Shown piece after piece: positions 2,890 to 37,353 of a stretch of DNA of 38,521 bases. The position numbers were made by a program, and so were the translations under genes. The stretch covers positions 1-38,521 of IMG/VR virus record IMGVR_UViG_3300018411_000009. One strand, written 5' to 3'. The notes under the pieces were generated by a model, which saw nothing but the letters and a program-made list of their open reading frames with translations, did no database searches and had not been told where the DNA came from. Origin of the DNA: a virus. Position 1 is the stretch's first letter; the number at the start of each line of letters is the position of its first letter.

Positions 2890-2928
2890 ACGCGTGCCTC
2901 ACGCGTGAAGCACGCAACAATAACGCGA
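2890..2928. repeat. Four-unit 11-bp repeat array (ACGCGT / ACGCNN)
   Basis: Four hexamers lie exactly 11 bp apart: ACGCGT at 2890, ACGCGT at 2901, ACGCAA at 2912 and ACGCGA at 2923. The five-base spacers differ (GCCTC, GAAGC, CAATA). The array is in the non-coding gap between SSB and the endolysin, about 50-90 bp upstream of the probable lysis promoter. The 11-bp step puts each unit on the same face of the helix. It resembles an iteron or a tandem operator; the binding protein is not known. Confidence 0.8.
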
Positions 2929-2958
2929 CTATCTTTAATGACCGGCCACGCAACGGTC

Positions 2959-3459
2959 TTAATCAAAAGGGATGTCATCATCAAAGTCCATTGGCGGCTC
3001 ATTGTACTGAGGCGGCGCACTATGCCTTTGGCTTGTTCCCTGTTTGGCCTGGGCATAACCTCCACTTTGCTGCCCCTGGTACTGCCCGGTATTACCGGAT
3101 TGTTGCCCTTGTGGTTTACCATCAAGCATCTGGAACTCACCACCGGGGCCAACAACAATCTCAGTGGTGTACTGATCTTGACCTTGCTGGTTCTGCCACT
3201 TGCGCGTGCGCAACTTGCCTTCAATGTAAAGCTTTGAGCCTTTGCGCGTGTACTCGCCGGCAACCTCTGCCAACTTCCCGTACAACACAACACGGTGCCA
3301 CTCGGTTTTTTCTACCGGCTGCCCTGTCTGCTTGTCTTTGTACTGCTCACTGGTGGCAATGCTTAGATTTGCCACGGCGGTACCGTTAGGCATATACCTA
3401 ACTTCCGGGTCCTGGCCTAAGTTGCCGACAATGATTACCTTGTTAATTCCGCGTGCCAT
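2959..3459 (-). CDS. ssb: Single-stranded DNA-binding protein
   Basis: This 166-residue protein coats single-stranded DNA during replication and recombination. The N-terminal OB fold (about residues 1-110) is easy to recognise: [18 protein letters not shown] at the start, then [17 protein letters not shown] and [14 protein letters not shown] glutamine/glycine/proline-rich linker follows, and then an acidic tail. The tail reads DFDDDIPFD: it matches the protein-docking tail of host SSBs but has one extra Asp after the final Phe. A GAGGTG Shine-Dalgarno precedes the ATG. It closes the left early/middle operon and works with the Rad52-like protein and exonuclease upstream. Confidence 0.95.
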
Positions 3460-3467
3460 ATTTCACC

Positions 3468-3863
3468 TCACGATAGGGCGTGAACTATAGACCTGAAAAT
3501 ATAATCTTTGGCCTGTTGTTCTTTTGGAAGCTGATCGAATGGAACCATGCAAGGATGGGTTTTTGCTTCAGGATCTTTAACATCACCATAAATCCAACCA
3601 TCAGCCTCTTTCTCGGCCATCCAGCTGTTGTGTGAGGCTTCAGGCCCTGCGCCTTTATTGACGATATGAAAAGCCACCCCGTTTATAGCGCTTTTCACTT
3701 GCCAGTCTGGCGCATCTTCCCATGATGGCTGCGAGTCATCACCCATTGCCTGGCAGTACGCTCTGTTTGCCTCATGGCATGTTTTGGCAATAAGTATTAG
3801 CTTTTGTTCTTCAACTCGCTTTGCTCTTTGCCGATCGGTTAAGTTACTTGAGAATTTACCCAT
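3468..3863 (-). CDS. RyR-domain protein
   Basis: This 131-residue protein has a helical N-terminal half (MGKFSSNLTDRQRAKRVEEQ onwards) and a C-terminal RyR domain. The domain is visible as ASHNSWMAEKEADGWIYGD, then DPEAKTHPCMVPFDQLP and EQQAKDYIFRSIV, at about residues 78-127. RyR domains occur as ligand-sensing modules in phage and defence proteins; the ligand here is unknown. The ATG at 3863 is chosen because GGAG lies 8 bases upstream and the start overlaps the stop of the coiled-coil gene by 8 bp. The next gene is ssb. A nucleotide-sensing role is only a suggestion from the family. Confidence 0.8.
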   Translation of the reverse strand: MGKFSSNLTDRQRAKRVEEQKLILIAKTCHEANRAYCQAMGDDSQPSWEDAPDWQVKSAINGVAFHIVNKGAGPEASHNSWMAEKEADGWIYGDVKDPEAKTHPCMVPFDQLPKEQQAKDYIFRSIVHALS

Positions 3864-4143
3864 TAGCTTTCTCCAAAGTTTGCCAAGCTTCATCTTCAGC
3901 GCTGATAACACCATGCTGGCGGTCAACGCATTCACCCCTGGCTTGTTCAATTACCTGGTCAAACGCCTTTATCAACTCTTGCGCCTGCCCGTTTATTTCG
4001 CCGTTCATGTGCTTCTCGTACTTCTGAGCCAGTGATCCATATTCACGGCGCGACACATCAAGCAATTCCACCAGCAATTCAATGTTGGCTTGCTGCATCC
4101 GTATTAACTCGTTGGCTTTGTGAAGGTCTTTGATTTCTTCCAC
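3856..4143 (-). CDS. Small coiled-coil protein, GTG start
   Basis: This is a predicted 95-residue, almost wholly helical protein (EEIKDLHKANELIRMQQANIELLVELLDVSRREY...), rich in Glu, Leu and Gln with heptad-like spacing. No known family was recognised. The start is set at GTG 4143 because a perfect AAGGAGG lies five bases upstream. ATG codons further upstream (such as 4218) have no Shine-Dalgarno and fall within the terminator region. It overlaps the RyR-domain gene by 8 bp, so the two products may act together. It lies just after a strong terminator, so it may be read from its own promoter or by readthrough. Confidence 0.62.
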   Translation of the reverse strand: MEEIKDLHKANELIRMQQANIELLVELLDVSRREYGSLAQKYEKHMNGEINGQAQELIKAFDQVIEQARGECVDRQHGVISAEDEAWQTLEKANG

Positions 4144-4148
4144 TGTTA

Positions 4149-4155
4149 CCTCCTT
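4149..4155 (-). promoter_or_regulatory. Shine-Dalgarno site that fixes a GTG start
   Basis: AAGGAGG on the minus strand, five bases before the GTG at 4143. It is a near-perfect match to the anti-Shine-Dalgarno sequence and decides the start of the small coiled-coil gene. Confidence 0.8.
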
Positions 4156-4170
4156 TCCAGCTGCTGCGTA

Positions 4171-4187
4171 TGCCACTTTAAATGGCA
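4171..4187. promoter_or_regulatory. Palindrome, possible operator
   Basis: TGCCACTTTAAATGGCA is a 17-base palindrome with one mismatched pair. It lies between the terminator at 4222-4246 and the GTG-start gene at 4143. The position suits an operator controlling whatever transcription enters the RyR/ssb genes, but no convincing promoter pair was found beside it. Confidence 0.3.
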
Positions 4188-4219
4188 CCCCCAACTGAAG
4201 CATTGTCATTATTGGCATG

Positions 4220-4246
4220 AAACAAAAGCCCGGCACTTGGCCGGGC
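4220..4246 (-). terminator. Rho-independent terminator after the DUF2303 gene
   Basis: Read leftward: GCCCGGC, a five-base loop CAAGT, GCCGGGC, then TTTTGTTT. The seven-pair GC stem and T-rich tail make this a classic intrinsic terminator. It lies 9 bases past the stop codon at 4255. Leftward transcription must pass it, by leakage or antitermination, or restart, to reach the coiled-coil, RyR and ssb genes. Confidence 0.85.
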
Positions 4247-4254
4247 CTCCCCTG

Positions 4255-5076
4255 TTAAGCGCTGAACTTACCTAAGTAAGTGATCAGCTCATAATCTTCA
4301 AAGCTGTCGTTCAACAACTCCATGAACTCTTGGCCCATTTCTTCCTGAACTGCTTCAAGGCGTTTAATTCGAGCCACCAGCGCCGGCGCTTCACCGCCAG
4401 TCAGCACAGATAGACGCAATTCAAAACTTCGTCCTGCCAAGCCGTTGTAAGGTATACAGGTGAAGCGGAACCCTGAAGGCATACCGTGATCGCTGCGCGC
4501 TTCAACATTTTCCAGGGCGCTACGGCTTGCCTTGAAGTCCTGAACTTCGTGATCTTCCTTACGGCTTGATTCGATAGTCAGGCGGCGCACTGCGCTGATT
4601 GCCTTGGTTAATGCAATAGCATCACCTTCAGCATTGTATGCCTGGATATGATCACCCCAATCTTCCAAGAACTCTGCCAGCGTCTTTTGGCTCATCTTGC
4701 TGCCATCAACACCAAGCACAGCGCGATACTCCGCTGTTTTCTGAAGCTGAAGCTTGGCGGTGTAGTCTGCATGGCCTGGCTGTTCTTCTGTGCCAAGGTT
4801 GAACACTGTCACCGCATTCATAGCTTCAGGGTCAACGAAGCACGCGGCACCAGTGCGGTCATGGTCAGTACAGTAGCGCACAAAATCTTCAGGGCTGATT
4901 GTGCTCATATTGCCACGATATCGAACGCGGCCAGCCAGGTAGCGCTCAAGGTTCTGAATGTCGAACTTTTCAGGCGTCACAACTACTGGCGTTTGAAGGT
5001 TAACTTTATCCAATGCAGCCTGTACTGCCTCTGCTGTTTGGGCCTGTTGGATCTGTTCGATTGCTGATTTATCCAT
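4255..5076 (-). CDS. DUF2303 (YfdQ-like) protein
   Basis: This 273-residue protein matches the DUF2303 / YfdQ family of phage and prophage early genes. The central part has the family feature of a HADYTAKLQLQKTAEYRA segment (about 100-118). A helical region KTLAEFLEDWGDHI follows, and then a C-terminal stretch GMPSGFRFTCIPYNG and SFELRLSVLTGG. The biochemical role is unknown; members usually sit in early operons near recombination genes, as here. The ATG at 5076 has only a weak AAAGGTA site 11 bases upstream. It is followed closely by a strong terminator, so it is the last gene of the first transcription segment of the left operon. Confidence 0.8.
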   Translation of the reverse strand: MDKSAIEQIQQAQTAEAVQAALDKVNLQTPVVVTPEKFDIQNLERYLAGRVRYRGNMSTISPEDFVRYCTDHDRTGAACFVDPEAMNAVTVFNLGTEEQPGHADYTAKLQLQKTAEYRAVLGVDGSKMSQKTLAEFLEDWGDHIQAYNAEGDAIALTKAISAVRRLTIESSRKEDHEVQDFKASRSALENVEARSDHGMPSGFRFTCIPYNGLAGRSFELRLSVLTGGEAPALVARIKRLEAVQEEMGQEFMELLNDSFEDYELITYLGKFSA

Positions 5077-5111
5077 AATATTTTTTACCTTTAAGTAAGA
5101 TTTTTTACATA

Positions 5112-5128
5112 GGGCGCACCAGGCGCCC
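5112..5128. other. Intercistronic GC hairpin
   Basis: GGGCGC-ACCAG-GCGCCC lies between the small hypothetical gene (stop at 5134) and the DUF2303 gene (start at 5076). There is no T tract on the leftward transcript, so it may be an RNA stability or processing element rather than a terminator. Confidence 0.5.
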
Positions 5129-5133
5129 GGCTA

Positions 5134-5502
5134 TTAGTTGACTTTCTTGGTGTTCGGGAAAGCGCTCACTTTGTCTGAAGGTTCGCCTTTCTTATCGAAC
5201 ATTTGCCCCTGATTCTCAGGGAAGAACGAAAGCGCACCACGGGTGCCAACGTGCATTGGCGTGCTGGTGGAGTTGTCCTCACTGATTGAACCTTTTGAAG
5301 TTGGGCGCTTGTACTTCAGTACATGGTCAATCTGTACCTGGTGACTACTACCGATCTGCTTAATATCAAGCGTGATACTGACAGTGCCCTTTTTGCCATG
5401 GTCAATCACTGACGCGGCAACATCACTAAGGATTGCTGAAAGCTTTTCCTCGAATACGCCGCCATCAAGGTCGGCAATAAATTGGTCTACTTTGGTGCTC
5501 AT
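5134..5502 (-). CDS. Conserved hypothetical phage protein
   Basis: This is a 122-residue protein of unknown function. The N-terminal half is a helical segment (VDQFIADLDGGVFEEKLSAILSD), then alternating strands with GTVSITLDIKQIG and VQIDHVLKYKRP. The C-terminal half is a loose, polar tail containing a FFPENQGQMFDK segment. Proteins of this shape are common directly upstream of DUF2303 genes in phages, and that is the arrangement here. The start overlaps the upstream gene stop by four bases (ATGA). It may work with the DUF2303 product, but that is inferred only from the shared position. Confidence 0.6.
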   Translation of the reverse strand: MSTKVDQFIADLDGGVFEEKLSAILSDVAASVIDHGKKGTVSITLDIKQIGSSHQVQIDHVLKYKRPTSKGSISEDNSTSTPMHVGTRGALSFFPENQGQMFDKKGEPSDKVSAFPNTKKVN

Positions 5503-5906
5503 AGGTCCACCCCATAAATGATTGATTCAAGCTCCTGTGACGCTTTAAGGCTTATGCCATGCTTGTCACACCATTCCGCAAGGTTATCCAGCGTTTGCAG
5601 CTGGCACTTCAAGCGGTACCCTTCAAGGCGCCATAACTCTTTGCGCGCCGATTCTTCAGCATTCTGCTTGGCTATTTTCATTCCAAGCTCTGCGTCAAAG
5701 TTTTCAGGACTGGCACACGCGCTTATCTCGGTCGCCACACTAAAGCCATTGCTCAAGAATGCCGTTGCCACTGTTGTAGTAGTGCCAGGCACCACATAAC
5801 AATGGACGTTAAGATCAGCAACCAGGCTATCAATGCGAGCCGGCGTAATTCGCGGCGCTGTCAAACCCTTGTCCTGGATCTCTTTTTCTACTGCGTTATC
5901 ATCCAC
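5499..5906 (-). CDS. Phage gp49/gp66-family protein (N4 gp49 / Sf6 gp66), GTG start
   Basis: This 135-residue protein carries the signature of the Phage_gp49_66 family. It has a basic [12 protein letters not shown] segment near the N-terminus, then [19 protein letters not shown] and a C-terminal [10 protein letters not shown], all in the family order. The function is unknown. The frame is open up to 6008, but the upstream part only mirrors csrA in another frame. The GTG at 5906 follows AGGAG by seven bases and overlaps the csrA stop by 8 bp, which makes it the natural start. It is part of the tightly packed left early operon. Confidence 0.75.
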
Positions 5907-6084
5907 GGTTTTTCTCCTGTTGGATTCTGTCGTAAATTTCCTCGCGGTGTACTTCAACCTCACGCGGGGCGTTAACTCCCAGCTTAACCTGGGAACCATT
6001 GACGCCAAGCGGGACTATCTCAATCACTTCTCGCCCGGTGTCGATGATTAATTTCTCACTAATACGGCGCGTTAGTATCAGCAT
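5899..6084 (-). CDS. csrA: CsrA, carbon storage regulator homologue
   Basis: This is a 61-residue RNA-binding post-transcriptional regulator, the same length as the Escherichia coli protein. The first strand (MLILTRR) and the final strand/helix ([17 protein letters not shown]) are nearly identical to bacterial CsrA. They keep Leu4, Arg6 and the RNA-contacting Arg in VHRE (here residue 47). The fold should therefore be intact and able to bind GGA in hairpin loops or over Shine-Dalgarno sites. A GGAAG site precedes the ATG, which lies inside the end of the exonuclease gene. The gene is well integrated in the operon, with overlaps on both sides. It may reprogramme host metabolism or time phage translation. 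Confidence 0.93.
5914..5918 (-). promoter_or_regulatory. Shine-Dalgarno site that fixes a GTG start
   Basis: AGGAG on the minus strand, seven bases before the GTG at 5906 and inside the end of csrA. The longer sequence context reads CAACAGGAGAAA, which also resembles a CsrA binding core. Confidence 0.65.
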
Positions 6085-6682
6085 TGGCTTCTTCCTTATC
6101 CTTCAGGTCCTGCATTGCCCAATACACTTCCATGCACGCTTGCGCATCTGCTAGTGCTGTGTGAGCGTTCTCAAGTTTTTTGCCAGTGAAATACTCATAG
6201 GCTTCTTCAAGCTTTGGACTCTTGAATCCATATTTGTTTTTGGGCAAAAGCTGCATGATAGGCTTGGCCATAAGCATGGTGCATTCATGGCTGTCTTTAT
6301 CTGCCCATTCATCCATTAGCGTTTCAGGATGGCCGTAACGCTTCAGGCCAATACGGATAATGCGCTGATCAAACGTCTTATTGTGAGCAACACGCTTTGC
6401 ACCGCCCCACATTTGAGTAAACAGCACAATGGCATCTTCTTCGTTAACGCCAACCTGCTTGGCAACATCTTCAGTGATACCGTGAATTTCTGACACTTCA
6501 GCCGGGATAGCCCAACCATTTGGCGCAATTATCACATCAAGCGTGCTGATAACCTTGCGGGTTTCTTCATCAGCCAGGATTGCGCCCAACTGAACCATGT
6601 GAGGCTGGTGCTCGCTATCGCTTGGCACTTTCCAGTCTGGCAAGCCGGTTGTTTCTGTGTCGTAAAAGATAATTGGTTTCAT
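6059..6682 (-). CDS. DEDDh 3'-5' exonuclease (DnaQ-like)
   Basis: This 207-residue protein has all three exonuclease motifs of the DnaQ/RNase T superfamily. FYDTETTG near the N-terminus gives Asp8 and Glu10. AHNKTFDQ gives the second acidic site, and HTALADAQ near the C-terminus gives the His and final Asp of the DEDDh type. A likely job is trimming 3' ends in recombination or recycling nucleotides, beside the Rad52-like and SSB genes. The ATG at 6682 is chosen over an upstream in-frame start because AGGAG lies just before it. Its 3' end overlaps csrA by 26 bp. Confidence 0.9.
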
Positions 6683-6695
6683 GATTTCTCCTAAT

Positions 6696-6713
6696 GGCGG
6701 CACTATGGCCGCC
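6696..6713. other. Intercistronic GC hairpin before the exonuclease gene
   Basis: GGCGGC-ACTATG-GCCGCC lies between the stop of the coiled-coil gene (6720) and the Shine-Dalgarno site of the exonuclease gene. There is no T tract on the leftward transcript. It may shield the 3' end of the upstream message or tune translation of the next gene. Confidence 0.5.
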
Positions 6714-6719
6714 TATGGT

Positions 6720-7874
6720 TTATTTAACTGTCACTACAAAGCCGGTGAACTCATCACCAACAATATCAACCGCGTACTGATCCATAAGCAGGCTTAAAAT
6801 TGCGCTGCTGTTTGAACTGTCGCACACAGCCTTAATGGTTACTTCGCGGTCCTGCTCTGGTTCTTCTTGTTCTGGTGCAACCTCCTTGGCTTTCGCCTCT
6901 TGCTTATGGTGAATCGCGTCAATATCAACGCCTGGAAACTTCTCTTTGCGCTCAGCCTCAGCCTTTGCCGCCTGTTCAGCTGCTGCTTCTTGCTCAGCTG
7001 CTTGCTTGGCCGCTTCTTCTTCAGCTTTCTTGGCCTCTGCCTGCTCAACCATTTCAGCCTGCGCCGCCATGGTTTCAAGCTGAGTGATTACCTGCTTATG
7101 CGCATCAAGCGCCTCTTGGTGACGATCGCCAAACTCTGCTGACGGTGGCTCATAGTTTCTCAAGCTTGCAATCTTGGTTAGTATTTCAGCTGCCTTCTTG
7201 CCCATTAAATCCATTGGGATCATGCGTAGCTTGTTGATACGATCACCAATCTGCTGTTGAAGCTCCATAGCCTTGCGCGCTTCCTCGGCCTGCTTGCGCT
7301 CCTGCTCTGAACGCTCAAACGCCAGGCGCTCGGTGTACATTTCATTAAGGCGCTCAAGTGTTTCGTTTTTGGCTTCAGCGGCTTCCTTGCTTAGCTCAAA
7401 GAAGTCCTCAGCTATATCAATGCTGTCAACTTCCTCAATCATTTCAGCAATAGTGGCGCTTTGCTGGTTGCGAGCCCGTACCACCCAAGAACGGATACCT
7501 TCAATTTTGGTGCGCAAGCGTGCAAGGCGTTCTTCCTTCATGCGCTTTTCGCGGTCATCAAACTCTTTCTTGGCATCCTTCATTGGCGTTTCTAGCTCAA
7601 CCAACGCTTCAGTAATGCGCTTTGCTTCTGCATCAATGATTCGCCCGGCATCTAGGTATGGCTGCTTAATGCGCTTACGCTCTGCATCAAGCGAAGTACG
7701 CAAACTAACAAGCTCTTTCAAGCCATCCTTCACAAAGTTGTAGCCTTCCTCGGTATCAAGGCTTGGAACAACACCATAGCGCTCACGCAATTCAGCAAGC
7801 GCCGCTTCAGTCTTGTTGAAAACTTCTACTTCAACTTTTCCGGTTTCAATGTTAACTTCGTTTAGTGAAGTCAT
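6720..7874 (-). CDS. Long coiled-coil protein of the recombination module
   Basis: This is a 384-residue, mostly helical protein. After a short N-terminal part (to about residue 30) it has long charged helices, including an EKRMKEERLARLRTKIEG segment. A second coiled-coil region near residues 270-320 is very rich in Ala, Glu, Lys and Gln. A small C-terminal globular part, beginning near VTIKAVCDSS, ends in FVVTVK. No catalytic motif was seen. Similar proteins sit between annealing and exonuclease genes in other phages, and a scaffolding or partner role in recombination is plausible. A strong AAAGGAG lies before the ATG. Confidence 0.62.
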   Translation of the reverse strand: MTSLNEVNIETGKVEVEVFNKTEAALAELRERYGVVPSLDTEEGYNFVKDGLKELVSLRTSLDAERKRIKQPYLDAGRIIDAEAKRITEALVELETPMKDAKKEFDDREKRMKEERLARLRTKIEGIRSWVVRARNQQSATIAEMIEEVDSIDIAEDFFELSKEAAEAKNETLERLNEMYTERLAFERSEQERKQAEEARKAMELQQQIGDRINKLRMIPMDLMGKKAAEILTKIASLRNYEPPSAEFGDRHQEALDAHKQVITQLETMAAQAEMVEQAEAKKAEEEAAKQAAEQEAAAEQAAKAEAERKEKFPGVDIDAIHHKQEAKAKEVAPEQEEPEQDREVTIKAVCDSSNSSAILSLLMDQYAVDIVGDEFTGFVVTVK

Positions 7875-7907
7875 AGGGTTTCTCCTTTTGGATCACTGTC
7901 AATTTAG

Positions 7908-7925
7908 GCCCGGATTATTCCGGGC
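7908..7925. other. Hairpin over the stop codon of the annealing gene
   Basis: GCCCGG-ATTATT-CCGGGC spans 7908-7925, and the TAA stop of the Rad52-like gene (7915-7917) is in the loop. On the rightward strand a TTCTTTTT tail follows, but no rightward gene ends here. On the leftward transcript it has no T tract. Confidence 0.5.
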
Positions 7926-8736
7926 TTCTTTTTCCGCCACATTCAGGGCACTTACTATCTGGCTTGCCCTTTCCGACAACACCACAATCCGCACAAACCA
8001 GGTCAACGTCTGGCGCTATTTCATCCATGCGAGCCTGGAAGGCATCAACAAACGGCTTTTTCGCCTTTTCTTGGTCAATGCCAAGCACCTGGCACTGTCT
8101 GGCAATCTTCTTCAGGTGGCCCTGGTGAACTGTGCGCAAGGCCGCCTTGTTAGGTATTTGCCCATAGGCTTTAAGCTCGCCTTCTGCCCACTCGCCAAAC
8201 TCCTGGCGCTGCTTAATGAGCTCGGCGTCTGCATCATCAGCCTTTTTCACCGACTCTTTAACGCGTGCTGCCTCAACGTATGTCTGATCATCAAACAGGC
8301 CAAGGTACACATCAGCACTAAAGCCAAGCATGGAAAGGCACTTCTTGATTGCATCTGTCAGGCTTTTCTTTGGCGCATCAAAGTCAGTCATTGAGCCATA
8401 GTGAGTGCCAAGCACATAGGGCGTGTGACCAAAGTGGCTAACTTCTCGGCGTTCGCCTTCTTCATCCAGGTACCAAAGCGTTAGCTTAATGGTGTGCATG
8501 ATTGAGTTACCAAGCACATTACCGTTGTGGATGATAGGGCCGCCCTGGTCAAAGCGTTCTTCTGTGATTTCATAGCCCCAACCTTTACCTACTGGACCAA
8601 AAACCTCAGTGGCTCGCTTAACCATGTAAGTGCCGTTAATGCTGGTGACAATGCGCCCATTAAGCTCAGAAGGTTTTGTATAACCTGGCGCCGTTTCTTC
8701 AACCTGCTTCCAGATAGATAGGTTTTTATCACTCAT
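7915..8736 (-). CDS. Rad52-like single-strand annealing protein with zinc ribbon
   Basis: This is a 273-residue recombinase expected to anneal complementary single strands. The N-terminal domain has a KRATEVFGPVGKGWGYEI segment, a beta region around the GNSIMHTIKLTLWY stretch, and the key DAIKKCLSMLGFSADVYLGLFDD motif at about 130-152. All are typical of Rad52/Sak-type phage proteins. The C-terminus carries a zinc ribbon, CADCG...CPECG. The ATG at 8736 is chosen because AGGTGA lies 7 bases upstream and it overlaps the upstream stop by 8 bp. It should work with the downstream exonuclease and SSB to repair and join phage genomes. Confidence 0.85.
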   Translation of the reverse strand: MSDKNLSIWKQVEETAPGYTKPSELNGRIVTSINGTYMVKRATEVFGPVGKGWGYEITEERFDQGGPIIHNGNVLGNSIMHTIKLTLWYLDEEGERREVSHFGHTPYVLGTHYGSMTDFDAPKKSLTDAIKKCLSMLGFSADVYLGLFDDQTYVEAARVKESVKKADDADAELIKQRQEFGEWAEGELKAYGQIPNKAALRTVHQGHLKKIARQCQVLGIDQEKAKKPFVDAFQARMDEIAPDVDLVCADCGVVGKGKPDSKCPECGGKRSPE

Positions 8737-9028
8737 TGTCATCACCTGGTTTGTACTCAAGCGCTTTCAATGACTGAATGCGGTCATCAATCGTTTTAAG
8801 TTTGGCGTGAGTGTCAGCTTTGATTTTATCTGCTGTCTTTTCCAGCATTTCAATCTCAGCCAGCACGCGGTCAGTTTGAGGAACAGCAACGATCACTTCA
8901 TCAGTGCCAAGAGGAATATAACCATACTCGCTCATGTCAGAAGTAAACGCTTGAGGCTCATCGGTATGCGGTGAAACTTGAATGTACACTTTCACCTTAA
9001 TTGTTTCGGGTAGGGTATTAGCGGTCAT
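8729..9028 (-). CDS. Small hypothetical protein
   Basis: This is a 99-residue protein of unknown function. The N-terminal half looks like a small beta fold (TIKVKVYIQVSPH, then YIPLGTDEVIVAVP); the second half is a coiled coil (RVLAEIEMLEKTADKIKADTHAKLKTIDDRIQ). The ATG at 9028 follows a GGAGAG site. The frame is open further upstream, but that part only shadows the membrane protein gene. It overlaps both neighbours: 11 bp with the upstream gene and 8 bp with the annealing gene. It is presumably co-expressed early. Confidence 0.62.
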   Translation of the reverse strand: MTANTLPETIKVKVYIQVSPHTDEPQAFTSDMSEYGYIPLGTDEVIVAVPQTDRVLAEIEMLEKTADKIKADTHAKLKTIDDRIQSLKALEYKPGDDNE

Positions 9029-9206
9029 TGCCACTCTCCTTATCGCAGTTTGTTTCAGGGTTGAAGTTTGGCCAGTAGCCTTGCTCGACCATCTGGCAGT
9101 AATGCGCCTCCTGATCAAGTTGGTCCTGGTAATCCATGGAACCAACCAGACCAAAAAGCCCAATCATTGCAGCCACTAACGCGGCAGACTTAATTTTCTT
9201 CTTCAT
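9018..9206 (-). CDS. Small membrane or exported early protein
   Basis: This 62-residue protein has a basic N-terminus (MKKKIKSA), one hydrophobic segment (AALVAAMIGLFGLVG, about 8-22), and a polar C-terminal part with two Cys residues (AHYCQMVEQGYW and ETNC). It is either a signal-anchored inner-membrane protein or a secreted peptide. Small proteins of this shape open the leftward early operon in other gammaproteobacterial phages. As the first gene after the divergent promoters, it would be among the earliest products made. Its function is unknown; membrane modification or superinfection exclusion is possible. Confidence 0.65.
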   Translation of the reverse strand: MKKKIKSAALVAAMIGLFGLVGSMDYQDQLDQEAHYCQMVEQGYWPNFNPETNCDKESGNDR

Positions 9207-9230
9207 AACGGCTCACTCTCCGTATCAGCG

Positions 9231-9257
9231 TTGAGTTGAAATTTACAGCCATATAAT
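9231..9257 (+). promoter_or_regulatory. Rightward early promoter
   Basis: A perfect TATAAT lies at 9252-9257, with TTGAGT at 9231-9236 (15-base spacer, slightly short). It drives the operon that starts with the Cro-sized HTH gene at 9344. Its -10 lies inside the spacer of the leftward promoter. Confidence 0.5.
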
Positions 9258-9268
9258 ACAGGTGTCAA
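9240..9268 (-). promoter_or_regulatory. Leftward early promoter
   Basis: Read leftward: TTGACA (9263-9268), a 17-base spacer, then TAAATT (9240-9245). The -35 is a perfect match and the spacing is ideal. It lies 34 bp upstream of the first leftward gene and overlaps the rightward -10, so the two promoters should compete or share control. Confidence 0.65.
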
Positions 9269-9343
9269 TAGTAATGTTTGCTTTTTTTAATTTCTCGTTG
9301 TAGCATTCACTCGAATCATAAAACCACCAATGAGGAATAGAAC

Positions 9344-9559
9344 ATGAACATTGGCCGCTCAGTAAAGGTAGCCCTGGCACAACGCGGTAAGACCGTGACC
9401 TGGCTATCTGAGCAACTTGGCATAAGCCGCACGCGCACCAGCACTATTGCGAACTCTGAACGGGTGAGCCTGGCAAACATTGAAAAGCTGGCTGCAATCT
9501 TTGAGCTCACTGCATCTGAATTTATTGCATTGGGGGAACAGGACTACAACAAGGAATAA
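9344..9559 (+). CDS. Cro-like HTH transcription regulator
   Basis: This is a 71-residue DNA-binding protein of the XRE/Cro fold. It has an N-terminal helix (SVKVALAQRGKT), the recognition unit TWLSEQLGISRTRTSTIANSE (about residues 18-39), then NIEKLAAIFELTASEFIALG. A GAGGA site lies just before the ATG. Its size and its place as the first gene of the rightward operon, beside overlapping divergent promoters, fit a Cro-type repressor that tunes early transcription. No CI-like partner gene is present, so it probably acts in lytic timing rather than a lysogeny switch. Confidence 0.78.
   Translation: MNIGRSVKVALAQRGKTVTWLSEQLGISRTRTSTIANSERVSLANIEKLAAIFELTASEFIALGEQDYNKE
9549..9555 (+). promoter_or_regulatory. 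CsrA-like motif over the Shine-Dalgarno site of the replication gene
   Basis: ACAAGGA, seven bases before the ATG at 9562. It equals the core ACARGGA known from CsrA targets and includes the Shine-Dalgarno AAGGA. If the phage or host CsrA binds it, replication protein synthesis would be repressed. Confidence 0.35.
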
Positions 9560-9561
9560 CC

Positions 9562-10455
9562 ATGGCACGCATACGAACAGTAAAGCCTGACTTATTCAGG
9601 CATGAGGACCTACACGACTTAGAACTAGAAACCGGCTTACCGGTTCGCCTGGCCTTCATCGGCTTGTTCTGTGTTTGTGATAAAGCCGGGCGCTTCCGCT
9701 GGCGCCCTAAGCAATTAAAGCTGGATATATTGCCCTATGATGATCTCGACTTTGAACGCGTAATTGACGCGTTAGCATCGCGTGACTTTCTCGTTAAGTA
9801 CGAAGTTGAAGGTGAGTTTTATGGCTGCATTCCTACTTTTACGCGCCACCAGCACATAAACAACCGGGAAAGTGAGTCAACGCTGCCTGATATGTCAGTT
9901 GGTACCCTCACCAATGAGGGAGCCAAGCCTGAAAGCCCCGCAATTACTGAGCCTGAGCAAATAAGTAACACTGAACTTGTCACGCGTGAACCACGCGTAG
10001 AGCACAGCACAGAAGGGGAAAAGGAAAGGGAAAAGGAAAGGGAAGGGGAAAGGAATAATATGTCGCGCCAAACACGCGACCAGGTGAAAGAAGTTTTCGA
10101 CCACTGGATCACAACCATGGGAAAAACCTCACAAGCCAAACTTACCGACAAGCGCAAGAAGTGCATTGAGGCAAGGCTGAAGGAAGGTTACACGGTTGAC
10201 CAGATCAAGCAGGCAATCGAAGGTTGTGCAAAGTCACCTCACCACATGGGGCAAAATGACTCAGGCACTGTTTACGATGATCTGACTTTGATTTGCCGGT
10301 CTGGTGACAAGGTTGAGCAATTCGCCAACAACGTAGCCAAGTTCCAACCAACCTACCTGAACGGGCCAGGCACAGAAACCCTTGAGCAATTTGAAAGCCG
10401 CGTAAGAAACCAGGCCGATAGAGCCAGCGCGATGATTGACGACTTACCAGACTAA
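9562..10455 (+). CDS. O-like replication initiation protein
   Basis: This 297-residue protein begins MARIRTVKPDLFRHEDL and continues with a winged-helix-type N-terminal domain (about 1-110), including RLAFIGLFCVCDKAGRFRW, typical of phage replisome organisers. A middle, highly charged linker (EGEKEREKEREGERN) is encoded by a polypurine tract. The C-terminal domain (about 165-270) has EVFDHWITTMGK, a KRKKCIEARLKEGY helix and SGTVYDDLTLICRSGDKVEQF, the conserved C-terminal module of phage replication proteins. It should bind the origin and recruit the host helicase. As in lambda O, the origin may lie within this gene. Confidence 0.82.
   Translation: MARIRTVKPDLFRHEDLHDLELETGLPVRLAFIGLFCVCDKAGRFRWRPKQLKLDILPYDDLDFERVIDALASRDFLVKYEVEGEFYGCIPTFTRHQHINNRESESTLPDMSVGTLTNEGAKPESPAITEPEQISNTELVTREPRVEHSTEGEKEREKEREGERNNMSRQTRDQVKEVFDHWITTMGKTSQAKLTDKRKKCIEARLKEGYTVDQIKQAIEGCAKSPHHMGQNDSGTVYDDLTLICRSGDKVEQFANNVAKFQPTYLNGPGTETLEQFESRVRNQADRASAMIDDLPD
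9756..9783. repeat. ACGCGT three-unit array at 11-bp step, inside the replication gene
   Basis: ACGCGT at 9756-9761 and 9767-9772, then TCGCGT at 9778-9783, each exactly 11 bp after the last. A weaker TCTCGT falls on the same register at 9789. Confidence 0.75.
9982..10079. other. Candidate replication origin inside the replication gene
   Basis: The region holds an ACGCGT pair (9982, 9993; 11-bp step), then a 45-base pure purine run (10011-10055) with a 12-bp tandem repeat GGGAAAAGGAAA. A short AT-rich patch (AATAATAT) follows, and then a second, degenerate pair TCGCGC/ACGCGA (10063, 10074; again 11-bp step). Iterons beside a strand-asymmetric, easily opened tract inside an O-like gene recall the lambda origin. 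No experimental or database support is available. Confidence 0.45.
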
Positions 10456-10465
10456 GGACAAACCC

Positions 10466-10879
10466 ATGACAGTGATTTGTGACTACTGCGGTAATGCCGC
10501 AAACCTTGTGACAGGCGAAGTGATATACCCGCACCGGCGCGACCTGTATCACCTGAAATTCTGGCATTGCGATAACGGGCACCCTCCTGCATACGTTGGA
10601 TGCCACAAACCAGGCAATGGCCAGGGTGACGGCGATAAGCCACTTGGAAGGCTTGCCGATAAGGTTTTACGAAAAGCCAAAGGCAATGCGCACCAGGCTT
10701 TTGACTGGCTTTGGCAAGATGGAATTATGCAACGCAATGAAGCTTACGCCTGGCTTGCTGAGCAATTAGGAATTAACCAAGAGGATTGCCATATCGGAAT
10801 GATGGACGTTGCTACCTGCAACCGTGTGGTTGATCTGTGTATGAAAAAACTTGAGGACCACCGCAATGCAAAAGTCTGA
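10466..10879 (+). CDS. DUF3268 zinc-binding protein
   Basis: This 137-residue protein opens with a CDYCG zinc knuckle (Cys5, Cys8), followed by VIYPHRRDLYHLKFWHC, AYVGCH, then PLGRLADKVLR and AHQAFDWLW. The last part contains AYAWLAEQLGI and CHIGMMD. This order of motifs is that of the DUF3268 family. The function is not known; the Cys/His set suggests nucleic acid binding in early replication. The ATG at 10466 follows AAGGA by eight bases; the frame is open earlier only as overlap with the replication gene. It overlaps the next gene by 14 bp. Confidence 0.8.
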   Translation: MTVICDYCGNAANLVTGEVIYPHRRDLYHLKFWHCDNGHPPAYVGCHKPGNGQGDGDKPLGRLADKVLRKAKGNAHQAFDWLWQDGIMQRNEAYAWLAEQLGINQEDCHIGMMDVATCNRVVDLCMKKLEDHRNAKV

Positions 10880-11510
10880 CTTCCCTAACTTCACCGCCGT
10901 ATGGTCTGCAACCTGTGAGCTATACGGAAAACAACCAAGTGACGCCGCGCTTGGCATGGCCTTTCGTGCGCTGTATCGCTATGACCTGGCAGACGTTAAG
11001 CGCGTCCTGGATGCGCATATCAATGATCCAGGTGACGGTAGATTCATGCCTAAGCCTGCCGACCTGGTTAGACACATTGACGGTGATCCAGAAAGCCGAT
11101 CACTACAAGCATGGTCAAAGGTTGAAAACACCATTGAGCGCATTGGTTCATACGGGACAGTGGTATTTGATGAGCCAGCAATCATGGCGTGCATTGAGGA
11201 TATGGGCGGCTGGATAGAACTCTGCAAGATCACCAATGATGAACTCCCATTCAAGCGCAATGAGTTCACCAAGCGCTACAAGGGATACTTGAACCGACCA
11301 CCTGAGCGGTACCCATCAAAACTAATTGGCGTTACTGAGGCGTCAAACTCACGAACAGGCCACATGGACGCAATGCCTGAGCCGGTCCTTATCGGTGACA
11401 CTCGCCAGGCTTTACTGGTCCATCAATCTGGTTCAAACCAGAAGAAAGGCCCGGTATCAATCAGCCAGGCCATGGCAATGATGCAACTTGAACACAAGGA
11501 ACAGGAATGA
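10866..11510 (+). CDS. DUF6475-like replication-associated protein
   Basis: This 214-residue protein begins MQKSDFPNFTAVWSATCELYGK and has a helical N-terminal domain (about 1-90). Features include a DLADVKRVLDAHINDP segment and FMPKPADLVRHIDG. The second half contains SYGTVVFDEPAIMACIEDMGGW and a FKRNEFTKRYKGY stretch. The pattern is that of the DUF6475 group, often placed after the initiator gene, and it may act as a helicase-loading or replication helper. The ATG at 10866 has GAGGA nine bases upstream. The stop overlaps the methyltransferase start (ATGA). Confidence 0.65.
   Translation: MQKSDFPNFTAVWSATCELYGKQPSDAALGMAFRALYRYDLADVKRVLDAHINDPGDGRFMPKPADLVRHIDGDPESRSLQAWSKVENTIERIGSYGTVVFDEPAIMACIEDMGGWIELCKITNDELPFKRNEFTKRYKGYLNRPPERYPSKLIGVTEASNSRTGHMDAMPEPVLIGDTRQALLVHQSGSNQKKGPVSISQAMAMMQLEHKEQE
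11494..11506 (+). promoter_or_regulatory. Double CsrA-like motif before the methyltransferase gene
   Basis: ACAAGGA followed directly by ACAGGA, ending at the base before the ATG at 11507. The first equals the CsrA core ACARGGA; the second has one base less. The AAGGA at 11496-11500 probably serves as the Shine-Dalgarno site, so CsrA binding would block initiation. Confidence 0.35.
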
Positions 11511-12040
11511 AAAATTACAATTCAAACACTCCAATCAGCGAGAAGGATTGCGCGCAAACTCCACCATGGTTCATTGCCTCACTTGAAGATCTAATGGCAA
11601 AAGAGTTTGACCTTGACGCTTGCGCGCTACCCCAAACAGCCAAGGCTGAAAAATTTTACAGCCTGGAAAATGATCAGAATGGGCTTGAACTGCCATGGGC
11701 GCCTTTGACCTGGTGCAATCCTCCTTTCAGTGATATTCAGCCATGGCTTGAGAAAGCATGGCGAGAAGCTGAATATGATGGCAATACTACTTGCGTAATA
11801 ATGCCTGATAACACTGAAACAGGATATTCACGTTACGCCTTGGAAAAGGCAGACACAATAATCAGGATGCCTTTCAGGCTTCAGTTTTTGCGGCCTGACG
11901 GTACCAGGTTTTTAGATAAAAAAGGAAAACCACAAAGCCCACAATTCCCATGCCAGGTAGCGATATTCACAGCGCTTGGAAACTATGCGCCAACTCGCCA
12001 GTTTTATCACGACTTCAGGGTAGGTTTTTATGGCAACTGA
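11507..12040 (+). CDS. Dam-like DNA N6-adenine methyltransferase
   Basis: This is a 177-residue methyltransferase of the phage Dam family (PF05869). The N-terminal QTPPWFIASLEDL and FDLDACA segments are diagnostic. The catalytic NPPF is at residues 71-74 (WCNPPFSDI), followed by CVIMPDNTETGYS and a conserved RFLDKKGKP loop. It methylates adenine in DNA, probably in GATC, though specificity cannot be read from the sequence. Likely roles are protection from host restriction or strand marking. It starts within the stop of the preceding gene and overlaps the next gene by 11 bp. It is the second adenine methyltransferase in this genome. Confidence 0.88.
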   Translation: MKNYNSNTPISEKDCAQTPPWFIASLEDLMAKEFDLDACALPQTAKAEKFYSLENDQNGLELPWAPLTWCNPPFSDIQPWLEKAWREAEYDGNTTCVIMPDNTETGYSRYALEKADTIIRMPFRLQFLRPDGTRFLDKKGKPQSPQFPCQVAIFTALGNYAPTRQFYHDFRVGFYGN

Positions 12041-12632
12041 AATAACACTGGTGAAGTGCCAGGACGGATCATTGCGCCCGGTAACACAAACAGATCAGGA
12101 CCTGGTTAAATCCTGGAAGCTTGGCCAGGGCGTGCGGGTGAAAGCTGTCATGCTAAAGCCGCGCTCGATACAGCACCACCGGCTGTATTGGGGCGGCCTG
12201 CTTGAACTGGCTTTTGAGTATTGGGAACCACAAGGCGGCCTTATCAGCGCCAGCGAAAAAGGCACACTTCTGAAGTTTTCAGACTGGCTTGATCGGCAAG
12301 GTGGCAATTCTGGCGCCATTCGCCGCGCCTGTAAGGCGTTCTTGACTGAGTTAAGACAAAGACGCGCCCAACACATAGAAGCGCCTGAGAAGTCAAAACA
12401 GGCCCTTCACGAATGGGTAAAGATTGAAGCCGGCTACTTCCGCTATGAAGTAACGCCTACCGGGTTGCGCAAGGTGCCGCTATCAATCAACTTCAACGCC
12501 ATGGACCAGGATGAGTTTACCAGGTTCTACAAGGCCGCCTTCAGCGTTGTCTGGAAGTTTATCTTATCCAGGACCTTTGAGAATGAAGCGCAAGCTGAGC
12601 AAGCCGTTAACCAACTACTGGCAATGGGGTGA
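12030..12632 (+). CDS. DUF1367 protein
   Basis: This 200-residue protein starts MATEITLVKCQDGSLRPVT and contains GQGVRVKAVMLKPRSIQHHRLYW and LAFEYWEP, the signature of the DUF1367 family of phage early genes. The C-terminal part (KVPLSINFNAMDQDEFTRFY) is also typical. The role is not established; members lie among lambda nin-region-type recombination genes, next to YbcO/NinB-like nucleases, as here. Overlaps of 11 bp upstream and four bases downstream place it firmly in the rightward operon. Confidence 0.78.
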   Translation: MATEITLVKCQDGSLRPVTQTDQDLVKSWKLGQGVRVKAVMLKPRSIQHHRLYWGGLLELAFEYWEPQGGLISASEKGTLLKFSDWLDRQGGNSGAIRRACKAFLTELRQRRAQHIEAPEKSKQALHEWVKIEAGYFRYEVTPTGLRKVPLSINFNAMDQDEFTRFYKAAFSVVWKFILSRTFENEAQAEQAVNQLLAMG

Positions 12633-12634
12633 TC

Positions 12635-27355: not shown

Positions 27356-28243
27356 TCACTGTGAATACATTTCAAGTAATTTGTTGCGGTCTATATTACC
27401 ACTTTGCCCCAAATCTTGAACCTGAATACCAAGCTTTCTCGCTGCTTGTGTTACAGCTTGCGAGCGAGTAACGCCACCTTGGCTATAAATTTTAGCCGCT
27501 TCAGTTGCGATAGACTGGACCTTGCCGCGTGTGGCCGGGTCAAGGTTTTGAAGGTTGCCTTGCTGATCAAACAAACCACCAAGCAACTCACCAGCCTGAC
27601 GATACATCAATGACTCATCAGCTGACTTTAGACCGCCATCGCCACTGGCACGCGTTAACGCGTTTTGCCGACTTGTCTGGCGGTCAAGCTCTTGACTGCT
27701 TGTTGTACGTTCGATAACGCGGCCATCCTTATACAGTCGGTCCTCTGTGCCAAACGTCATGCGCTCAGGGTTCTGTAGCAACTCATCAACCTGGCGAGCT
27801 CTGGCAAGCTGCATTTGAAGGAAGTTAGGGTCGTATTGCTCAGGCATCTTTGCTGCGAGCTCTGGTGATACGCTTTGCCTGGCAAGCTCGTATGCCTGCT
27901 CAGGGTTTTCAGACTGAAGAACATAGGCTGACATTTTTCCGATCGCATCAATGTTCTCTTGTGTCTGCTGGCGCTGGCGATCATCCATCTTACTTAGTGA
28001 CTCAAGCATCTTCTTAGCTTCTTCAGGGTCAAAAGCGTTTAGCTCCTGCATAGCCTGAGGATCACCAGCTGACGCCTTTGAGCGCAAATCAGCAAGAGCG
28101 TTACCTCGCTGGCGCGCTGCCTCGCGGTCCTCTTTCTTCCAGTCCATCATTAACGCGTTCTGCTCGCGAGACTGACGCGCACCCTTAACTGCCTCTGCGG
28201 TCCGGTAAACCTGGCCCAAGTCAATTCCAAAAGCATTAGCCAT
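27356..28243 (-). CDS. Probable ejection (internal virion) protein, gp20-like position
   Basis: This is a 295-residue, strongly helical protein rich in Gln, Ala and Arg. It has an N-terminal GIDLGQVYRTAEAVKGARQS, a charged middle (KKEDREAARQRGNALADLRSK) and a C-terminal GVTRSQAVTQAARKLGIQVQDLG. No enzyme motif was recognised. By position between a gp7-like protein and the giant protein, it matches P22 gp20, one of the internal proteins ejected before the DNA to build a channel across the cell envelope. The Shine-Dalgarno GGGAGG lies over the stop of the upstream gene, and the next gene starts seven bases after its stop. Confidence 0.65.
   Translation of the reverse strand: MANAFGIDLGQVYRTAEAVKGARQSREQNALMMDWKKEDREAARQRGNALADLRSKASAGDPQAMQELNAFDPEEAKKMLESLSKMDDRQRQQTQENIDAIGKMSAYVLQSENPEQAYELARQSVSPELAAKMPEQYDPNFLQMQLARARQVDELLQNPERMTFGTEDRLYKDGRVIERTTSSQELDRQTSRQNALTRASGDGGLKSADESLMYRQAGELLGGLFDQQGNLQNLDPATRGKVQSIATEAAKIYSQGGVTRSQAVTQAARKLGIQVQDLGQSGNIDRNKLLEMYSQ
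28153..28180. repeat. Degenerate three-unit array at 11-bp step
   Basis: ACGCGT (28153), TCGCGA (28164), ACGCGC (28175): CGCG cores exactly 11 bp apart inside the ejection-protein gene. It is weaker than the other arrays, as only one unit is exact. Confidence 0.45.
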
Positions 28244-35187: not shown

Positions 35188-35253
35188 GCGCGCTCTCTCC
35201 TGTCGCGGATTGTTTAACCCCATGAAGCCATGGGTAGCTTATAACTACTTGAC

Positions 35254-35281
35254 ATTATAACGTGAAAATACTAATGAGCAA
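35254..35281 (-). promoter_or_regulatory. Probable promoter before the scaffold gene
   Basis: Read leftward: TTGCTC (35276-35281), 16 bases, perfect TATAAT (35254-35259), in the context CGTTATAATG. It lies about 67 bp before the scaffold ATG, in the 99-bp gap after portal. The same ten-base context precedes the tail fibre gene. Confidence 0.45.
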
Positions 35282-35288
35282 TCACGTT
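35259..35288. other. Inverted repeat over the portal stop codon
   Basis: AACGTGA (35259-35265) and TCACGTT (35282-35288), with 16 bases between. The portal stop codon (35287-35289) lies on one arm, and on the leftward strand the repeat runs directly into ATAATG. It is either an operator around the promoter or a weak hairpin. Confidence 0.5.
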
Positions 35289-37353
35289 AAGCATTCCCTT
35301 GGCTCTGAGCCATTAACTCGGCCATAGCCTCAGCAACCAGGTTACGCACTGTATCTTCCAATGTTCCAGGACCTGCCATCATGGCCGCCTGCTCTATTTC
35401 TGCCAACTTCGCTTGTGCTTCAGCTGTCTTAGCTTGTGCCATTGCCATATCGGCCTGGGCTTTCGCTGTGTCTGCCTTGGCTTTCTCCATATCGGCTTGA
35501 GCCTGTGCCATATTGGCTTGCTGCTCTGGTGACGGTTGAGGCGGTTCAATACCTGCTTCCTCCATTTCATCCTGATCAAGAATGCCAGGCGGCAATGTTT
35601 TCTGTAGTCGGCGTGCAATATCCTGCGCGCCAGGCCAATCCATATTCTTGGCGATAAGATCAAGGACCACGCCACCAGCTGCCGGCACAGCCTGAACAAA
35701 CTGCATTAAACTGTCTGCTGCTTCCATGCGCTGTGTTTGATAGCTTGGGCCAGCCTTCACAGTCACATCAAACTTACCTGCTGCAATATCGTTAACCAGG
35801 ACCGGCTTCTGTGTTTCCTCATCCATGACCATCTGATTTATCTGAACCCAATCACCTTCACCATCCTGGAAGCGCAAGCGCAACACTCGTTCGCTGTCAT
35901 ACACTCGCGGGATAAGCTCAATCAGGATCTGCCCAACACGGCGAATAGCCCGGCTCAGGTTGTCGATATAGGCAAAGGTACCGCGATCACCCTGGCGCTG
36001 GCGCGCAAGAATAGCCTTGCCGCTTTGCTCATTCCCTTGTGCGCCAACGCTGGCATCATACAAGCCAATAGTTGCTTTCATTTCATCGGTAGCGCTCAAT
36101 GCAAGCTGAAGCTCTGCCGCTGGCATACTGGCCGGCATATCACGCTGAGGACGGTCAACACCTGGTAAAGCGTTATAGCGTAGAACGCTCATGTTCTTGC
36201 GGTTTGCCTGGTTCCATTCTTCCTCATAGCCTTCAATGGATTCTGCTGGCGCTACCCATGGGGCCTTTGGTGCCAATGCAACACGCTCTGTTGCTGCTGT
36301 CATCCAGTAGTTGTGCATACGCTGGGCATCCTTACCAAAGCGAATCAGACCACGGTAATAGGTCTTGTCACCGATAACCATTTCCTTACCAAGCACAGGT
36401 GCCACAGGAATGGTTGAGCCAGGCCAATCAACCGGGCCTTCTAGCACATCGTATGCAGTAACCTTCATCCATTTAACTTTGTAGGTTTTGACGCGTCTTT
36501 CACGCGTGACTGTCGTGCCAAGCTCGCGCAACTCGTCAAGCACATCCTTTACTTCATCTTCCCACACGGTACGGCCATCACTGAGCAATAACAGCTTGCG
36601 AGTTACCGGTTCACGGTAGAAGTATTCAGATACACGCACACCTTCTTCATTGGTCCACCAGCTGTACTCACCACGCTCAGCATCACTCAGATCACCAACG
36701 GCTTTTCCTGGGTACCGCTTTTTAAACTCTGCCTTGCTCATGCGCTCGCTGATAAAACACCAGTTTGCATCACTGTAGTCTGGCTCTGTTGCGTCCGGGT
36801 CCATCAACACAGCAAAGCGGTTGTGAATACTCTTGATGCACAGGTCAAGGTCAAAGGCATCATCAGCGCTGTACTTGGTGAGAACGCGCAACCAACCAAA
36901 GCCACCTTCAACGGCGTGCTGGAATGCGTTGTCATAGTGCGCTTCTGCGTTGCTGGTGTACTCGATGTTGCGGATCAGGCTCTCATACACTTCTGCCAGG
37001 CTGTAATCAGAAGTGCCGGCCACGTTTGGCACCTTGCTGGTATCCTTGGTGGCATTGGCTTCGACTGGATGCACCTGGATTGCAGGGCGATTCTGGCGCT
37101 GATCACCCAATACCTGGTCAACGTATTGAGGCAACTTGTTCAGCGTCAAGCATGGGCGGCCCTCGTCCTCACGTTCCTTGCGCACAGACTCAGGCCATTG
37201 TTGACCGGCCAGGAATGAAATATCTTCCTGGGCTGCATCAAAGTTATGCTTCCAACAAGTAACAGCGTGCGCTGCTCGCTCTCGTATTTCCTGAAGTATT
37301 GCCTCTTGGCTGTCATCATCCCTGGTCTTAATTGGTTCATTACCTGGTAGCAT
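35287..37353 (-). CDS. Portal protein, P22 gp1-like
   Basis: This is a 688-residue ring protein at the DNA entry vertex. The N-terminal region (about 15-90) has HNFDAAQEDISFLAGQQWPE and PCLTLNKLPQYVDQVLGDQRQN, characteristic of the P22 portal family. A middle crown/wing part has GEYSWWTNEEGVRVSEYFYRE, and then GLIRFGKDAQRMHNYW at about 345. The C-terminus (about 590-660) is a long Ala/Gln/Lys coiled coil with repeated MAQAQADMEKAKAD-like units, matching the helical barrel of P22 gp1. The gene carries an ACGCGT pair at 36491-36507. Confidence 0.9.
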   Translation of the reverse strand: MLPGNEPIKTRDDDSQEAILQEIRERAAHAVTCWKHNFDAAQEDISFLAGQQWPESVRKEREDEGRPCLTLNKLPQYVDQVLGDQRQNRPAIQVHPVEANATKDTSKVPNVAGTSDYSLAEVYESLIRNIEYTSNAEAHYDNAFQHAVEGGFGWLRVLTKYSADDAFDLDLCIKSIHNRFAVLMDPDATEPDYSDANWCFISERMSKAEFKKRYPGKAVGDLSDAERGEYSWWTNEEGVRVSEYFYREPVTRKLLLLSDGRTVWEDEVKDVLDELRELGTTVTRERRVKTYKVKWMKVTAYDVLEGPVDWPGSTIPVAPVLGKEMVIGDKTYYRGLIRFGKDAQRMHNYWMTAATERVALAPKAPWVAPAESIEGYEEEWNQANRKNMSVLRYNALPGVDRPQRDMPASMPAAELQLALSATDEMKATIGLYDASVGAQGNEQSGKAILARQRQGDRGTFAYIDNLSRAIRRVGQILIELIPRVYDSERVLRLRFQDGEGDWVQINQMVMDEETQKPVLVNDIAAGKFDVTVKAGPSYQTQRMEAADSLMQFVQAVPAAGGVVLDLIAKNMDWPGAQDIARRLQKTLPPGILDQDEMEEAGIEPPQPSPEQQANMAQAQADMEKAKADTAKAQADMAMAQAKTAEAQAKLAEIEQAAMMAGPGTLEDTVRNLVAEAMAELMAQSQGNA
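36491..36507. repeat. ACGCGT pair at 11-bp spacing, inside the portal gene
   Basis: ACGCGT at 36491-36496 and 36502-36507 with CTTTC between. A weak third unit TCGTGC falls on the same register at 36513. Confidence 0.75.

Follow-up and report, generated by a model that had tools for sequence, protein, structure and literature searches.

In the 38,521-nucleotide viral stretch analyzed here (IMG/VR record IMGVR_UViG_3300018411_000009, positions 1 to 38,521; hereafter, the window), which comes from a phage close to Vibrio phage VvAW1, the palindrome ACGCGT recurs in short arrays with a step of 11 bp. Arrays of this kind lie inside the gene for a replication initiator, rep, and six more lie far from this probable origin at positions that are kept in relatives. 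Sequence comparison indicates that the units in rep are very probably the origin iterons of Rep, with both binding and origin activity ascribed to them on that basis. The arrays outside rep share the motif and the step and are likely to be bound by Rep as well. That these off-origin arrays serve as a replication fork barrier or a replication switch is a tentative proposal made by analogy. The explanation as a whole (Rep iterons, an origin within rep, and Rep acting at off-origin arrays as barriers) is the one we favor, with moderate confidence. The phenomenon is real, related to replication, and largely explained, in that in-gene iterons are a known architecture. The unusual part is the dispersal of putative initiator arrays over the genome.

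The window contains 25 exact copies of ACGCGT and 6 exact pairs of the form ACGCGT-N5-ACGCGT, at 913, 2890, 9756, 9982, 23326, and 36491. These were first noticed in an earlier examination of the DNA made without database searches (the sequence-only reading), and every coordinate given there was correct. Its estimate from composition was about 8 to 9 copies; our value from base composition was 9.0, and a first-order Markov model gave 6.1. However, a maximal-order Markov model, which already uses the counts of ACGCG and CGCGT, gave 21.7. Codon-preserving shuffles (n = 3000), which had been named as the check that could overturn the pattern, yielded a mean of 12.3 copies (maximum of 23) and a mean of 1.016 pairs at 11 bp (maximum of 2), and none reached either observed count. 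The shuffles leave the intergenic pair at 2890 in place, so that exactly 1 of the mean of 1.016 is that pair. When all hexamers were ranked at spacings of 6 to 40, ACGCGT at 11 was first in the window (6 pairs) and in VvAW1 (4 pairs), and the runner-up combinations had 2 pairs. When degenerate units were allowed, three-unit clusters that matched at 15 or more of their 18 bases occurred 6 times in the window at step 11 (2890, 9756, 12843, 23304, 28153, and 36491) and a single time over all of the 23 remaining steps in the range of 7 to 30. The step-11 clusters numbered 7 in VvAW1 and 6, 4, and 6 in the related genomes G002, G004, and G006, respectively, compared to 0 or 1 at each of the other steps in the same five genomes. 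The pairs at 913 and 9982 fall below this three-unit threshold. The core CGCG is, in addition, followed by another CGCG at +22 in 7 instances in the window.

The sequence-only reading had treated the copies as one genome-wide family. This holds for the arrays, where the excess sits and to which 15 of the 25 exact copies belong, but the 10 isolated copies look like background. Their number is near the expectation from the codon shuffles, and 5 of 18 third codon positions were variable compared to a background of 38%, which is not a clear difference. This tally lists all ten, including the copy at 15521, which could not be aligned, and the singles at 27658 and 30558, which are not conserved; on it, isolated copies were rejected as functional sites. 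One function for all copies is, therefore, not supported. Two copies lie 8 bp apart at 27650-27663 (ACGCGTTAACGCGT), the second of which is without conservation in four relatives. Palindromic 6-mers as a class numbered 417 in the window compared to a Markov expectation of 638, and ACGCGT was the most over-represented palindrome by z-score.

The features in question are listed in Table 1. The window Rep is 92.9% identical to VvAW1 gp33, and the two arrays in its gene stand at constant spacing, at nt 194-221 and 420-436. The DNA of the first array supplies the codons of a predicted helix (residues 64-73) within the code for the DNA-binding domain. The second array, kept in four relatives, falls in residues 141-146, inside the low-confidence linker. 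The sequence around the rep arrays has an unremarkable AT content (0.55-0.575).

The same arrangement was found in other phages. Viral contigs and genomes were scanned for three exact ACGCGT units at an 11-bp step, and at least 120 stretches matched in viral contigs, compared to 5 for AGCGCT, a control of the same composition. Among the matches listed, tblastn with the window Rep gave a match at 105 of 120 viral loci and at 38 of 117 genome loci. Finding the motif inside an initiator gene by motif alone bears out the role at the DNA level that had been suggested. Units in the homologous loci listed occupied nt 194/205/216 of the gene and appeared again mostly at approximately nt 310-430. A start codon could be placed for 137 such loci; the first triple was present in 100 of them, and 91 of these 100 also had a linker pair or triple (6 had a single linker unit, and 3 had none). 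Of the 145 homologous loci listed, 120 had a purine run of at least 15 nt behind the linker array. Linker units (406 units from 148 distinct proteins) favored C or G on both flanks of ACGCGT and avoided T. Several of the genome matches were supplied by contigs of one Isosphaera assembly (L207, L209, L215, and other PNKH01 contigs), whose palindromic family, GGTTAGCGACGCGTCG...CGACGCGTCGCTAACC, looks unrelated.

A search that began with the protein recovered five Rep homologs from IMG/VR (46-47% identical over the whole protein and 72-74% in the N-terminal part) and four from a plasmid collection (61.8-65.1% identical). All 9 homologs outside the window clade with N-terminal identity of at least about 60% carried the first triple and at least 2 linker units; three of the IMG/VR contigs were already in the motif list (L106, L115, and L126), and L354, also one of the nine, has the same unit positions as L080. 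Because the window shares the rep array and polypurine layout of these homologs, we read its in-rep units as origin iterons. The origin role is suggested by the position in the initiator gene, the recurrence in distant phages, and the precedents of lambda, SPP1, and pSK41. The words "iterons" and "replication" in the sequence-only reading, thus, fit the location of the motif in homologous initiator genes. The literature that we searched contained no description of ACGCGT iterons and no paper that, by its title, dealt with phage-origin arrays of this kind, a statement that holds for these searches only.

An AlphaFold2 model of Rep built from 43 sequences had a mean predicted local distance difference test score (pLDDT) of 82.4 and a predicted template modeling score (pTM) of 0.48. 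It comprises a confident winged-helix-like domain (residues ~15-96), a low-confidence linker (~121-165), and helices to the end. Helix 64-73 is, from its order in the domain, the predicted recognition helix. The VIA-align matches, which covered model residues 6-107, were winged helices and other folds at Z values of 5.3-6.4, values that do not place the family. The matches included entries titled "Structure of initiator" and "Structure of Rep-DNA complex," which we take to be staphylococcal RepA_N plasmid proteins. Pfam gave nothing above the curated cutoff for the window Rep and no RepA_N match (E up to 0.1), nor did RepA_N match any of 49 Rep family members (E up to 0.01). A search of PDB sequences with the Rep profile had two matches, to an unrelated protein (E 0.19-0.2), and Foldseek with the model returned nothing at E <=0.001. 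A ribbon-helix-helix protein had been put forward as the binder, but the Rep that accompanies the motif is predicted to be a winged helix. The scan of window proteins against family libraries, which covered some of the open reading frames, assigned none of them to a ribbon-helix-helix family, and this operator reading was set aside as lacking support from the family scans or the Rep model.

Conservation was measured in four relatives (VvAW1, G002, G004, and G006) at 24 alignable ACGCGT sites; contig G001, identical to the window at printed precision over the aligned length, was not counted as a relative. The hexamer was kept at 20 sites in VvAW1, 21 in G002, and 20 each in G004 and G006, compared to 53-63% for all palindromic 6-mers and 57-71% for all 6-mers. 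Loss of the pairs from the same places in close relatives, the other observation proposed as a refutation, was thus not what we found. Two sister phages with a portal protein 76% identical to that of the window, G005 and G018, have no ACGCGT in 38.7 and 39.1 kb, and tblastn with the window HTH (helix-turn-helix) regulator and Rep found no match in either. Palindromic 6-mers were below expectation in all four genomes tested; the missing hexamer alone is, therefore, weak evidence, and its absence was rejected as a stand-alone proof. What counts, on sequence comparison, is the apparent joint replacement of Rep and motif in the sister phages. G005 encodes a different HTH protein and a DnaD-like/O-like Rep unrelated to the window Rep, with repeats of its own at 18866-18924, inside the linker code of its Rep gene. 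These repeats and those of G018 (24941-24998) are tandem repeats around ACAACAG with 12-bp and then 11-bp steps. At the places of the dispersed arrays, the sister phages have other codons and, in part, other residues.

Five of the six off-origin arrays are intragenic. The sixth, at 2890, lies between the genes for ssb (2959-3459, minus strand) and an endolysin (2348-2800, minus strand), within the longest gap between genes used (2801-2958, 158 bp). This array is kept beside ssb in relatives. Its first unit is TCGCGT in G004, and G002 is aligned there without an exact pair in the printed sequence. The lysis-side sequence differs in VvAW1 (annotated gp20) and G006. All three exact units at 23304, 23326, and 23337 and both exact units of the 36491 array are kept in the four relatives. 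In the five intragenic off-origin arrays, third codon positions of the ACGCGT cores were variable among the five genomes at 3 of 22 positions. The corresponding share was 38% in the genes used as background (p = 0.013, one-sided Fisher test) and 40% at distances of up to 300 bp (p = 0.008). Spacer third positions varied like the background (6 of 17). These data point again to a role at the level of DNA.

Off-origin pairs appear to be a habit of this clade, which has 3-4 pairs outside rep per ~38-kb genome in addition to degenerate arrays. Only one pair outside rep (L113) was found in 28 other records with an ACGCGT-type Rep (1,204,275 bases); these were drawn from 32 records, with L084, L093, L125, and L142 omitted because their Rep start was not located. 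Five of six further named records had no such pair. The sixth, MW202482, has a second array (MW202482.1 37460-37510, L357) that is intergenic, just before the large terminase gene and approximately 7 kb from rep.

Table 1. Arrays of ACGCGT units and associated features of the window (positions in nucleotides)
Feature	Position	Strand	Details
Off-origin pair in the small terminase gene (576-1199, -)	913-929		Second unit is ACGTGT in VvAW1
Off-origin four-unit array	2890-2928		2890 and 2901 exact; 2912 and 2923 degenerate
HTH_26 (Cro/C1-type) regulator gene	9344-9559	+	Directly before rep; Pfam PF13443, E 5e-07
rep, replication initiator	9562-10455	+	297 aa; PHROG 16167 "replication initiation protein," E 5e-115
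Putative origin array 1	9756-9783		9756 and 9767 exact, 9778 TCGCGT; rep nt 194/205/216
Putative origin array 2	9982-9998		Units at 9982 and 9993; rep nt 420/431, linker code
Polypurine tract	10011-10055	+	Right behind array 2; purine run of up to 48 nt if one pyrimidine is tolerated
Degenerate off-origin array in the HNH gene (12629-12952, +)	12843-12870		6, 4, and 5 of 6 matches
Off-origin array in the giant DarB-like gene (16384-27375, -)	23304-23342		Four register positions
Degenerate off-origin array in gene 27356-28243 (-)	28153-28180		6, 4, and 5 of 6 matches
Off-origin array in the portal gene (35287-37353, -)	36491-36518		Two exact units and a weak third (3/6)

In the mechanism that we propose, Rep molecules would bind 11-bp-spaced units as neighbors along the same helix face, and the arrays inside rep together with the polypurine tract that follows would form the replication origin. 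In the VvAW1 clade, the same Rep would also assemble on arrays outside the origin. Rep bound there may stall or reset replication forks, and such barriers could promote the transition from theta replication to recombination-dependent concatemer synthesis, a role that has been put forward for G38P at SPP1 oriR. The window carries SSB, exonuclease, and NinB-type genes, and its phage, if like VvAW1, would also have permuted, redundant DNA.

Three known systems resemble this arrangement in architecture. SPP1 has oriL with G38P sites inside gene 38 and a second site, oriR, where G38P has been proposed to stop forks and initiate the change to concatemers (PMC6316719, PMC3485210). The window is like SPP1, a headful, concatemer-making phage, in having initiator-binding direct repeats (predicted, in the case of the window) in the initiator's own gene and also at a distance. 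The distant site of SPP1 is single and includes an AT-rich part, whereas the window has approximately six off-origin arrays, mostly intragenic and without a polypurine tract; the likeness drawn here between G38P and Rep is one of architecture. Lambda ori lies within gene O (PMC3349717), and there, too, tandem iterons in the initiator gene occupy code between functional parts and adjoin a special tract. The lambda iterons are four in number and 18 bp long, and the AT-rich part measures 38 bp; the window differs in its short palindromes at an 11-bp pitch, its additional array in DNA-binding-domain code, its polypurine tract, and its off-origin copies. The Rep boxes of plasmid pSK41 lie within rep (PMC5703833), and pSK41 Rep is a RepA_N protein whose winged-helix N-terminal domain binds boxes centrally in its own gene; its linker is encoded by origin DNA, and its C-terminal domain is separate. 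The passages of PMC5703833 consulted describe no off-origin boxes. The window Rep differs from RepA_N proteins in lacking a Pfam RepA_N match, and its structural similarity to them is middling.

Sites for one phage protein scattered in large numbers over a genome are also known from the stoperators of mycobacteriophage L5, which are asymmetric, mostly intergenic repressor sites. The unit in the window is, unlike these, a perfect palindrome that stands in tandem arrays, is mostly intragenic, and is shared with the putative origin. Dispersed partition sites of the N15 type go with phage-encoded ParA/ParB-like proteins; no such protein was named in the scan of window proteins, which again covered some of the open reading frames.

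Several observations weigh against our explanation or narrow it. Other Rep relatives were seen without off-origin arrays, and these arrays are, therefore, not required by Rep as such. The scanned loci (at least 120 viral and at least 117 genome) were chosen by the motif itself, and, among the matches listed, a Rep match was missing from 15 of the 120 viral loci and from 79 of the 117 genome loci. Linker arrays were present in only 3 of 17 Rep homologs below 60% identity (1.176.O, 1.131.O, and MW202482), several of the 17 being near-copies of one another. Two other hexamers were kept more often than ACGCGT (GTTAAC, 9 of 10 in VvAW1; TGCGCA, 13 of 15 in G006). The third-position test was small, and it used related genomes and degenerate units picked by eye. 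No polypurine tract was found at the off-origin arrays, and the AT-rich flank of the 2890 array was not kept in VvAW1 and G006.

The alternatives to barriers concern what the off-origin arrays do and what binds them. Titration or handcuffing of Rep, by which the arrays would limit initiation, for example during plasmid persistence, is unlikely but survives best. VvAW1 has no integrase that was found, and its authors suggested plasmid replication (PMC3558961); arrays without a polypurine tract are what would be expected of pure binding sites, and competition of extra origin iterons for O has been discussed for lambda (PMC3349717). The same account, however, argues that handcuffing fails to explain the inhibition observed. 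Titration also needs no fixed places, yet the off-origin places are kept, and in two plasmid-like relatives with an ACGCGT-type Rep (54,159 and 46,622 bases), the pairs are confined to rep.

Control of transcription by Rep at some off-origin arrays, above all of late genes, seems improbable to us. The 2890 array is flanked by ssb and the endolysin gene, and positions 2838-2811 of the minus strand hold a -10/-35-like site; the off-origin array of the unrelated phage MW202482 stands before its large terminase gene; an array before late genes in both is a hint of late-gene control. Nevertheless, the promoter scan found 2 sites compared to 1.2 in shuffles, five of the six arrays are inside genes, and the sequence between the 2890 array and the lysis genes differs in VvAW1 and G006. 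We consider it equally improbable that some of the off-origin arrays serve as further origins, complete in themselves. Close to 2890, the AT-richest 80-nt segment was matched or exceeded at 2.6% of random positions, this being one of eight arrays tested, but the flank is not kept in two of the four relatives, and the AT-rich element was rejected on that ground. The missing polypurine tracts and the unkept flank disfavor complete extra origins. GC skew had no readable second turning point and was uninformative.

Binding of the off-origin arrays by another protein, such as a host protein or the HTH_26 regulator encoded beside rep, is very doubtful. Across the genomes compared, wherever Rep and the motif occur, the HTH gene does too, and where they are missing, so is it. 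However, seven phages with HTH homologs (37-49% identical) have no ACGCGT/11 enrichment, although specificity may have changed; the repressor was disfavored as the binder for this reason. The HTH promoter region (9207-9343) has no exact ACGCGT, and the motif accompanies Rep homologs in many phages. Chance or codon usage, with which the background-like isolated copies would agree, is scarcely credible as the source of the pairs given the codon-preserving shuffles, the step scan, the site conservation, and the recurrence of the array at one position of the gene across many phages.

Other repeats and genes were noted in passing. The rep of MW202713 has no ACGCGT but, by eye, another 11-bp repeat. 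One cluster each of 7-bp tandem repeats was seen in the Rep relatives 24E30.2 (L057, GGAATCA-like) and P12026 (L059, GGAACAG-like) and in the HTH relative BA3 (L061, AGAACCA-like), the last of which had no match to the N-terminal part of Rep; these were rejected as the same motif, being a different repeat. In the window, a 160-aa open reading frame at 3468-3950 matched the RyR domain (Pfam PF02026, E 4e-11). A DNA methyltransferase-type gene at 11507-12040 (PHROG 111, E 3e-42) lies in a stretch where VvAW1 fails to align (11499-12026). A plasmid search at near identity with window positions 1-20000 gave no match.

For a widespread phage initiator family that is hardly covered by Pfam, these results provide a predicted DNA recognition site and a predicted origin location. 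The array within the codons of the predicted DNA-binding helix clearly illustrates how a protein code and a DNA code can overlap. A plausible suggestion, short of a conclusion, is that a small group of Vibrio-type phages spread Rep arrays as a network of control points (barriers, switch sites, or both) held by synonymous-codon selection, which would carry the SPP1 idea of oriL and oriR over to many sites. Should Rep bind the off-origin arrays, phages of this clade could serve to test directly whether an initiator stationed away from the origin controls the change from early to late replication, an idea stated for SPP1 (PMC6316719, PMC3485210).

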